A stretch of DNA of 64,000 nucleotides from Flavobacterium fluvii (GTDB lineage: Bacteria; Bacteroidota; Bacteroidia; Flavobacteriales; Flavobacteriaceae), in assembly GCF_900129545.1 (NCBI RefSeq), contig NZ_FQWB01000002.1:124001-188000 (forward strand), given 5' to 3'. The notes below the pieces were generated by a model. The model had not been told where the DNA came from, ran no database searches, and worked only from the letters and a program-made list of their open reading frames with translations. Positions 28,197 through 29,839 of the stretch are shown piece after piece; position 1 is the stretch's first letter; each line of letters opens with the position of its first letter. A program made the translations under genes and the position numbers.

Positions 28197-29597
28197 TTAA
28201 ATAGTTTCTGCCAAGTCCAACGCTTTATTCAGTGCCAATAATTTATTGTACACTTCCTGCATTTCGCTTTCTTCGTCTGAGTCTGCAACAATTCCTGCTC
28301 CAGCCTGACAATGCAATTGGTGATTCTTGCTTAGGAAAGTTCGAATCATGATGGCGTGATTGAAGTTGCCTTCAAAATCCATAAAACCGATGGCGCCTCC
28401 GTAAAAATTACGATTTGTTTTTTCGTAATCTTCTATCAATTGCATTGCTCTGTGTTTGGGCGCTCCGCTCAACGTTCCTGCCGGGAAAGTATCGGCAACG
28501 ACCTGCATTGTTGTGGCTTTTTCGTGTAAATGTCCTGTCACTTTGGAAACCAAATGGATTACGTGGGAGAAAAACTGGACTTCCCTGTATTTTTCTACAT
28601 TCACATTGTGACCGTGGCGGCTTAAATCATTTCGGGCCAAATCGACCAACATCACGTGTTCGCTGTTTTCTTTTTTGTCTTCGGATAATTTTTTGGCAAG
28701 AACAGCATCTTTTTCGTCATCGCCGGTTCGTCTGAAAGTTCCTGCGATGGGGTGAATTTCGGCTTTGCGGTTTTTGACGATAATTTGGGCTTCGGGTGAA
28801 GAACCAAATATCTTGAAATCGCCATAATCGAAAAAGAATAGGTAAGGGGAAGGGTTGATGCTTCTCAACGCCCTGTAAACATTGAATTCATCGCCTTTGA
28901 AACCTTGGGTAAATCTTCTGGACAACACCAATTGGAACACGTCGCCTCTGTGGCAATGTTTTTTTGCCAATGCCACATTGTGTTTGAATTCCTCGTCAGT
29001 TAGGTTGGATTTACCTTCGCCATCTCTGGTGAATTTATACGATGCAATATTTCGGGATTGCAACAATTGTTCGATTTCCGAAATGTTGTTTTTTCCATCC
29101 AAACTGTGACAGAAGATATAGGCTTCGTTTTTGAAATGATTGATGGCAATGATGTTTTGGTACACCGCATAATACATATCAGGAATTGTAGTTTCTCCAT
29201 CTTTCTTTGCGATGGTCACTTTCTCGAAATAACGAACGGCATCATAAGAAATGTAACCAAACAATCCGTTGTTGATGAATTTGAAATTGTTTTTCTCTGA
29301 TTTGAATTGTCCTGAAAATTCCTGAATTACTTGAGGAACATCAGTTTTTGCATTTATTGAAAGGATTTCTGTACTTCCATCAGGGAAAATTTTGGAAATG
29401 GTTTCGTTTTCGATTTTAATGGAAGCAATCGGGTTGCAACAGATATATGAAAAACTGTTGTCGTTACCGTGATAATCGCTGCTTTCCAAAAGTAAACTAT
29501 TTGGAAATTTGTCTCGAATTTTGAAATATACGCTTACCGGAGTAATCGTGTCGGCAAGGATTTGCTTGTAATGTGTATTTAGAGTAAATGTTTTCAT
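28197..29597 (-). CDS. trpE: Anthranilate synthase component I
   Basis: It converts chorismate to anthranilate. The 466 residues include the feedback-inhibitor region LLLESSDYHGNDNSFSYI, the chorismate-binding core with FQLVLSRRF, GSSPEAQI, IHPIAGTFRRTGDD, EHVMLVDLARNDLSRHG, and GTLSGAPKHRAMQLI. The LLES motif suggests normal feedback inhibition by tryptophan. It is the first structural gene of the trp operon and is preceded by the leader attenuator at 29645-29769. Confidence 0.97.
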   Translation of the reverse strand: MKTFTLNTHYKQILADTITPVSVYFKIRDKFPNSLLLESSDYHGNDNSFSYICCNPIASIKIENETISKIFPDGSTEILSINAKTDVPQVIQEFSGQFKSEKNNFKFINNGLFGYISYDAVRYFEKVTIAKKDGETTIPDMYYAVYQNIIAINHFKNEAYIFCHSLDGKNNISEIEQLLQSRNIASYKFTRDGEGKSNLTDEEFKHNVALAKKHCHRGDVFQLVLSRRFTQGFKGDEFNVYRALRSINPSPYLFFFDYGDFKIFGSSPEAQIIVKNRKAEIHPIAGTFRRTGDDEKDAVLAKKLSEDKKENSEHVMLVDLARNDLSRHGHNVNVEKYREVQFFSHVIHLVSKVTGHLHEKATTMQVVADTFPAGTLSGAPKHRAMQLIEDYEKTNRNFYGGAIGFMDFEGNFNHAIMIRTFLSKNHQLHCQAGAGIVADSDEESEMQEVYNKLLALNKALDLAETI

Positions 29598-29644: not shown

Positions 29645-29680
29645 AAAATAGAAAAAGGCTTGTCGTGATGACAAGCCTTT
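29645..29680 (-). terminator. Attenuator terminator of the trp operon
   Basis: AAAGGCTTGTC and GACAAGCCTTT (29670-29680 and 29654-29664) make a perfect 11-bp stem with a 5-base loop, followed on the minus strand by TTTTTCTATTTT. It lies between the Trp-rich leader peptide and trpE, with no gene end just before it other than the leader peptide stop. Its 5' arm, loop and 3' arm can alternatively pair with the leader (see the antiterminator entry). Confidence 0.88.
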
Positions 29681-29719
29681 CATATTTATAGTTTATACTA
29701 CAGGTGCTTTGTTCACGAC
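29666..29719 (-). promoter_or_regulatory. Predicted trp antiterminator
   Basis: GTCGTGA at the leader-peptide stop (29719-29713) is a perfect complement of TCACGAC in the terminator loop and 3' arm (29672-29666). The following ACAAAGC can further pair, with small bulges, to GCTTGT of the terminator 5' arm. A competing early hairpin TTTACG/CGTGAA (about 29730-29711) would act as the 1:2 structure. A ribosome stalled at the Trp codons leaves GTCGTGA free; one that reaches the stop covers it. Confidence 0.72.
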
Positions 29720-29769
29720 GTTTGACGTAAATTGTTCCACCACCAAGTATTGTTTAATATCGTTTTCAT
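29713..29769 (-). CDS. trpL: trp operon leader peptide with three consecutive Trp codons
   Basis: ATG at 29769 opens an 18-residue frame, MKTILNNTWWWNNLRQTS, ending in TGA at 29713. Three adjacent TGG codons at positions 9-11 in such a short peptide, directly ahead of trpE and of an intrinsic terminator, are the signature of ribosome-mediated attenuation: the ribosome senses charged tRNA-Trp. The stop codon is built into the predicted antiterminator arm. The predicted transcription start lies within a few bases of the ATG, so the peptide may be translated from a nearly leaderless mRNA. Confidence 0.88.
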   Translation of the reverse strand: MKTILNNTWWWNNLRQTS

Positions 29770-29773
29770 TCGA

Positions 29774-29803
29774 CAAATATATAAATCAAATTTGATTATT
29801 CAA
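29774..29803 (-). promoter_or_regulatory. trp operon promoter with palindromic spacer
   Basis: On the minus strand TTG (29803-29801), a 19-base spacer and TATATTTG (29781-29774) match the flavobacterial promoter consensus perfectly. The spacer contains a perfect 14-base palindrome AATCAAATTTGATT (29784-29797) that could be an operator, although AT-rich palindromes also arise by chance. Confidence 0.75.
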
Positions 29804-29839
29804 ATAGATTGAAAAAAAATCACTAATTTTTTTGGTTTT

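Follow-up and report, generated by a model that had tools for sequence, protein, structure and literature searches.

The DNA directly before trpE in Flavobacterium fluvii raises two questions: does it encode an attenuator that works as the Escherichia coli trp leader does, and what in it, if anything, is new? An earlier note, made from the sequence, had described a complete ribosome-mediated trp attenuator here and had implied that it was novel. We present here a computational analysis of this locus within the window, by which we mean the whole 64,000-nt stretch that was analyzed (assembly GCF_900129545.1, contig NZ_FQWB01000002.1, positions 124,001 to 188,000 of the forward strand), and of its counterparts in related genomes.

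Placement in a known RNA family

An Rfam search of the whole window returned one match over threshold, RF01692 (Bacteroid-trp), with 65.7 bits against a cut-off of 49 and an E value of 7e-06. The match covers the full model and lies before a trpE gene whose closest protein relatives are from Flavobacterium; full-length match, location, and Trp-codon leader are shared with the family. The Rfam model stops inside the 5′ arm of the terminator and depicts only the 1:2 hairpin, whereas the window element has the terminator too. Weinberg et al. 2010 (PMC2864571) include Bacteroid-trp RNA in their Table 1, and a 2019 paper on F. psychrophilum places such an element before the trp operon of that species and describes it as resembling the E. 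coli trp leader (PMC6414381). A 2021 F. psychrophilum transcriptome with start-site mapping reports strong clues for leader-peptide attenuation at amino acid operons; the word tryptophan is absent from its main text (PMC9723704). Because the family is catalogued and the F. psychrophilum element published, the novelty that had been implied does not hold: the mechanism proposed is right yet not new as a kind. Among the open-licence papers listed, we recognized neither an experimental test (mutational or tryptophan shift) of a flavobacterial trp attenuator nor a description of a leaderless one. The window element belongs to RF01692 and adds a predicted leaderless variation.

Architecture of the leader

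The elements listed by the earlier note are present on the minus strand (Table 1), with amendments to two of them. Directly before trpE lies an 18-codon frame with three adjacent Trp codons, and GTCGTGA extends over its stop codon. The antiterminator pairs that had been described also exist, as 7 bp of GTCGTGA with TCACGAC and 6 bp of ACAAAGC with GCTTGT, with one bulge; they overlap the base pairs of the terminator, so the two structures are mutually exclusive. The 11-bp terminator stem stands as described and was picked up independently by a mechanical scan; its T-tail is there but interrupted by C and A. The TTTACG/CGTGAA hairpin exists as well, but it is only the inner part of the 1:2 structure for which it had been taken, the Rfam model and the comparative counts adding an outer helix. 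In that outer helix, Thr-Trp codons (ATACT, GGTG) pair with a stretch past the stop codon, which makes it the helix that a stalled ribosome would melt. The fold of positions 29772-29640 has a z score of −4.26 (0 of 200 shuffles equally stable), and the complementarity between leader and terminator in the window has a z score of −2.35 (3 of 300 shuffles equally good).

Table 1. Features of the trp leader region in window coordinates; leader nucleotides (nt) are numbered along the minus strand, nt 1 being the A of the ATG at 29769
Feature	Position	Strand	Basis
TTTG, "−33" element, at −35 to −32 if +1 = 29769	29801..29804	−	Sequence
TATATTTG, exact match to Bacteroidetes −7 box TAnnTTTG, 4 nt before leader ATG	29774..29781	−	Sequence
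RF01692 Bacteroid-trp match, full model 1-131	29670..29789	−	Rfam search
trp leader peptide gene, MKTILNNTWWWNNLRQTS + TGA	29713..29769	−	Sequence; predicted leaderless, +1 = A of ATG 29769
1:2 hairpin, outer ATACT/AGTAT + GGTG/CACC, inner TTTACG/CGTGAA	29695..29750	−	Rfam model structure, comparative counts
Three adjacent Trp codons (TGG), presumed ribosome stall site	29737..29745 (nt 25-33)	−	Sequence
Antiterminator 5′ strand GTCGTGAACAAAGC, overlapping stop codon	29706..29719	−	Complementarity; GTCGTGA exact in 80/80
GTCGTGA spanning leader stop codon	29719-29713 (nt 51-57)	−	Sequence
Stop codon TGA of leader frame	29715-29713	−	Sequence
Intrinsic terminator stem-loop AAAGGCTTGTC-ATCAC-GACAAGCCTTT, 11-bp stem	29654..29680 (nt 90-116)	−	Sequence, mechanical scan
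Antiterminator 3′ strand GCTTGTCATCACGAC, = terminator 5′ arm + loop + first 3 nt of 3′ arm	29662..29676	−	Complementarity
T tail of terminator, broken by C and A, TTCTATTTT after stem	29645..29653	−	Sequence
trpE, first structural gene, 56 nt past terminator stem	28197..29597	−	PF00425, PF04715

These elements suggest the following switch. RNA polymerase would start at the leader AUG or no more than about one base away, and ribosomes would load without a Shine-Dalgarno sequence. When charged tRNA-Trp is scarce, the ribosome would wait at the three Trp codons and melt the 1:2 hairpin, leaving GTCGTGAACAAAGC free; this strand would then pair with the 5′ arm and loop of the terminator, and transcription would proceed into trpE. 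When tryptophan is plentiful, the ribosome would reach the UGA inside GTCGTGA and cover that strand, and the terminator would form. The transcription start, the stalling, and the response to tryptophan are steps that we infer. An E. coli-type reading is supported by the RF01692 match, by leaders with three adjacent Trp codons (WWW) in 80 of 80 close relatives and with WW or WWW in 10 of 10 more divergent loci, by compensatory change in the terminator, and by a folding model with E. coli trpL as its control (all below). The element is very probably a ribosome-mediated transcription attenuator of the Flavobacterium trp operon within RF01692.

T-box RNAs, TRAP, and the Trp repressor are known trp controls in other bacteria, and one of them might in principle sense tryptophan at this leader. 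RF01692 alone reached the Rfam threshold in the window, and a profile search of the genome gave no match to TrpR (PF01371) or TRAP (PF02081), with PF01371 positive in both E. coli and Bacillus subtilis and PF02081 positive in B. subtilis as controls. Sensing by any of the three is extremely improbable, and this candidate was rejected. The locus, together with the lack of a TrpR or TRAP match in the genome, also supports the view that Flavobacterium depends on classical attenuation for its trp operons.

The window leader shares with E. coli trpL adjacent Trp codons (three here, two in E. coli) and an antiterminator and terminator that exclude each other. It differs in that its antiterminator pairs through the terminator loop into the 3′ arm, in the genome's lack of a TrpR match, and in belonging to the Bacteroidetes, which are described as lacking Shine-Dalgarno sequences (PMC6847099).

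Conservation across relatives

At E ≤ 0.001, RF01692 was matched in 25 of 60 relatives and in 30 of 296 genomes of the phylum, F. fluvii itself being counted in both sets; 24 and 28, respectively, were over the cut-off. Searches on this scale are filtered, and weak matches are lost. Among the 53 loci chosen through Rfam, 51 lie before trpE and 2 (L024 and L029) before trpB, and WWW is present in 51 of the 53 leaders.

To keep the RNA from being the selection criterion, 80 loci were picked by their TrpE protein. They are the best 80 of 558, all of them close relatives (Flavobacterium and near kin) with TrpE 83 to 93% identical. All 80 carry a WWW leader and an exact GTCGTGA, bearing out the expectation that a Trp-rich short frame is kept in related species. 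The terminator was found by script in 79 and is visible by eye in the 80th (L077). In 5 of the 80, the leader frame stops early, at a TAG that takes in the first base of GTCGTGA; the motif is intact where the frame ends before it and is thus kept as RNA, not as peptide.

TrpE was also sought in 31 genomes that lack an Rfam match, comprising 29 of 35 from the relatives set (all but 6 distant ones) and 2 of 266 from the phylum set. Ten gave a full-length match at 46 to 70% identity, taken as TrpE, and the leader upstream has WWW in 7 and WW in 3, each with a terminator after it. The 10/10 count identifies divergent leaders that the large RF01692 searches missed and indicates a family wider than its Rfam model detects. 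As controls, 20 genes with weaker matches (27 to 33% identity), presumably PabB- or MenF-like, had no WW or WWW leader (0/20), and shuffled upstream sequence was positive in the leader test in 11 of 2,000 cases. Fourteen of the genomes without an Rfam match belong to the same genus. TrpE is full length in 3 of them, each time behind a WW or WWW leader; a fourth has just a 54-residue piece, and the other 10 gave neither. Several of the 14 assemblies are incomplete.

Two other arrangements were seen among the relatives. In L024 (same genus) and L029 (same class), a Trp-rich leader and a terminator lie directly before trpB, whose products are 67% and 69% identical, respectively, to TrpB of the window. 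Two genomes of one genus in another family of the same order (L025 and L136) have tandem WWW leader frames before trpE. In L025 (L025:77-350) these are MQKINTIWWWQSKL followed by MLNNKINNWWWPVLTQYAGQSCYNII, with a terminator-like hairpin after each, the second identified by eye; the pair is a possible double attenuator.

Comparative evidence for the hairpins

The Rfam-chosen leaders, less three identical rows (L014, L037, and L040), gave an alignment of 50 distinct leaders. The earlier note had expected compensatory changes in both hairpins; these proved clear in the terminator, moderate in the 1:2 hairpin, and within the range of the controls in the nearly invariant antiterminator.

In the terminator, 8 of 11 pairs carry changes in both partners (double changes), and 98.9% of cells are paired. 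None of 500 shuffles scored as high (shuffle mean, 1.0), and versions slid along the alignment reached at most 3. The 1:2 hairpin is supported, less firmly. Double changes occur in 7 of its 15 pairs, a count matched or exceeded in 3 of 500 shuffles; the cell count is 25 against 8.4 in shuffles, and 84.0% of cells are paired against 41 to 60% in slid versions. The control slid by −3 had 10 double-change pairs against 7 for the hairpin, with a covariation score of 0.136 against 0.155. Pair nt 28-65 of the drawn hairpin forms in only 3 of the 50 leaders.

The antiterminator is paired in 94.2% of cells in its first helix and 77.6% in its second. Double changes occur in only 2 of its 13 pairs. As many or more arose in 121 of 500 shuffles, slid versions gave as many as 5, and the covariation score of the antiterminator was equalled by 374 of 500 shuffles. 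Covariation is unusable here because the columns are nearly invariant, and it was dropped as proof. Overall, 86.5% of antiterminator cells are paired against 23 to 48% in slid versions, so that this structure is supported by conserved complementarity, not by covariation. Leader by leader, the complementarity to the terminator has a z score below −2 in 36 of the 53 Rfam-chosen loci and above −2 in 17.

The distant leader L051 has a changed terminator, and its leader keeps TCAAAGTCTT, complementary to the changed arm AAGACTTTGA. This antiterminator co-change, seen by eye and with a shuffle z score of only −0.87, is not captured by the alignment counts.

Folding model of the switch

Folding was modeled with the RNA accessible up to the loop and the GAC of the terminator 3′ arm. 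The ribosome edge was assumed to lie 15 nt past the first P-site base, and the stalled state was defined by the third Trp codon in the A site. In the stalled state, every one of the 81 leaders formed at least 8 nt of antiterminator pairing, 13.2 nt on average. Moving the ribosome to the stop codon lowered the average to 0.8 nt, and 13 of 81 leaders retained at least 3 nt. E. coli trpL, the positive control, changed in the same direction, with about 5 of 7 nt of region 3 paired in the stalled state and 0.1 at the stop codon.

For the full transcript at equilibrium, the terminator wins in every ribosome state (0.98). Equilibrium folding was therefore rejected as proof of switching, and antitermination must be kinetic. 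The same result is what would be expected of a plain intrinsic terminator with constant partial read-through, behind a leader frame that is translated with no regulatory effect. E. coli trpL, however, also gives a terminator that wins at equilibrium, and a plain terminator does not account for three adjacent Trp codons in 80 of 80 relatives or for a GTCGTGA that outlasts the frame around it. We regard the plain terminator as very improbable and retain attenuation.

In the model without a ribosome, the antiterminator would form transiently, outcompeting the 1:2 hairpin, with 12.3 nt paired in the window leader and a mean of 11.4 nt; the figure for E. coli trpL is 2.0 paired nt out of the 7 in region 3, a measure not identical to the flavobacterial one. 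The basal state with no translation may thus be less well protected than in E. coli.

Promoter and predicted start of the leader

The −7 box TATATTTG and its distance from the leader ATG (Table 1) fit published Flavobacterium promoter spacing. In F. psychrophilum, the TAnnTTTG box is reported at −12 to −5 (PMC9723704), and a study of F. johnsoniae accepted boxes as probable promoters when they preceded a start site by 4 or 5 nt (PMC6847099). On this spacing, +1 would fall on the A of the AUG, and the leader is predicted to be leaderless. In the 80 TrpE-chosen loci, the gap between box and ATG is 4 nt in 13, 15 to 19 nt in 67, and 5 to 14 nt in none. In the 53 Rfam-chosen loci, which span more genera, the strict pattern gives gaps of 4 nt in 7, 5 to 7 nt in 8, and 15 to 22 nt in 34; it is absent in 4 (L002, L007, L009, and L025), of which 1 has a relaxed match only and 3 have none. 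Leaders from other genera, and from one other family, also have gaps of 4 to 7 nt.

It is an evenly balanced proposition that part of the genus has a leaderless trp attenuator starting at a 5′-terminal AUG, with sister species using the same kind of promoter and a predicted 5′ untranslated region (UTR) of 11 to 15 nt. F. frigoris would be a close relative of the leaderless kind, and F. saccharophilum a leadered one. Alternatively, transcription may start upstream or several bases off, the 4-nt spacing to TATATTTG being coincidental or the box a weak promoter. The start site in the window is a prediction, the longer gap prevails among the relatives (67/80), and leaderless mRNAs are a small share in F. 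psychrophilum, at 5.5% of mRNAs (PMC9723704); in F. johnsoniae, 87% of predicted transcripts have leaders over 10 nt (PMC6847099). Against this stand the exact box at 4 nt in the window and in 13 of 80 relatives with none at 5 to 14 nt, the short gaps outside the genus, and the TTTG at −35 to −32, an element that is weak in general (just 28 of 80 relatives have a TTG 18 to 26 nt ahead of the −7 box). A start elsewhere is accordingly judged rather unlikely.

The best trpE tree has 81 rows, 14 of them leaderless, and accounting for these takes 4 changes of state. Taken with the lack of intermediate spacings, this would mean, if the leaderless reading is true, that the initiation mode of one attenuator switched repeatedly, and that 5′ UTRs of about 1 to 10 nt are avoided in the genus. 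The well-supported branches force only 1 change, and a single origin of the leaderless form may be compatible with them.

What seems fresh in the window element is a detail, the predicted position of the leader peptide gene at the very first base of the message. Canestrari et al. in 2020 reportedly described leaderless polycysteine attenuators in mycobacteria; judged by title, these resemble the present prediction in using a leaderless short frame as an amino acid attenuator and differ in amino acid and phylum. The trp attenuator of Sinorhizobium meliloti, which is not a Bacteroidete, likewise has an RNA that begins at the leader ATG, as is predicted here (PMC7298713). Since it is already reported in other phyla, leaderless attenuation is not new as a general principle.

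Roles in trans have been reported for the S. meliloti leader RNA and peptide (rnTrpL/peTrpL), the RNA having been called a possible small leaderless mRNA (PMC7298713), and the terminated leader RNA or peptide might act in trans here too. The terminated RNA would be about 120 nt long and stably folded. The cis mechanism is enough to explain the conservation, and an additional trans role appears distinctly improbable. The predicted leaderless form would offer a simple natural system for studying how flavobacterial ribosomes, which work without Shine-Dalgarno sequences, initiate at a 5′-terminal AUG, because the leaderless species and their leadered sisters have promoter box and leader in common.

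Other leaders and genes in the genome

Elsewhere in the F. fluvii genome, no attenuator pattern was found before two ilvD-like genes (L165 and L166) or one homoserine dehydrogenase gene (L169). A His-rich leader frame, MLSTQLHHHHFHYCSQAMC, followed by a terminator lies 174 to 56 nt before the first ATG of hisG (L164) and is a probable his attenuator. The nearest TAnnTTTG is 33 nt before its leader ATG, so the his leader is not predicted to be leaderless.

Within the trp cluster of the window, two further genes lie between trp genes on the minus strand. A cytochrome c domain gene (PF00034, 26712-27545) is located between trpG and trpD and has an N terminus that looks lipoprotein-like by eye. 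A gamma-glutamyl cyclotransferase-like gene (PF06094, 22670-22990) is located between trpB and trpA.
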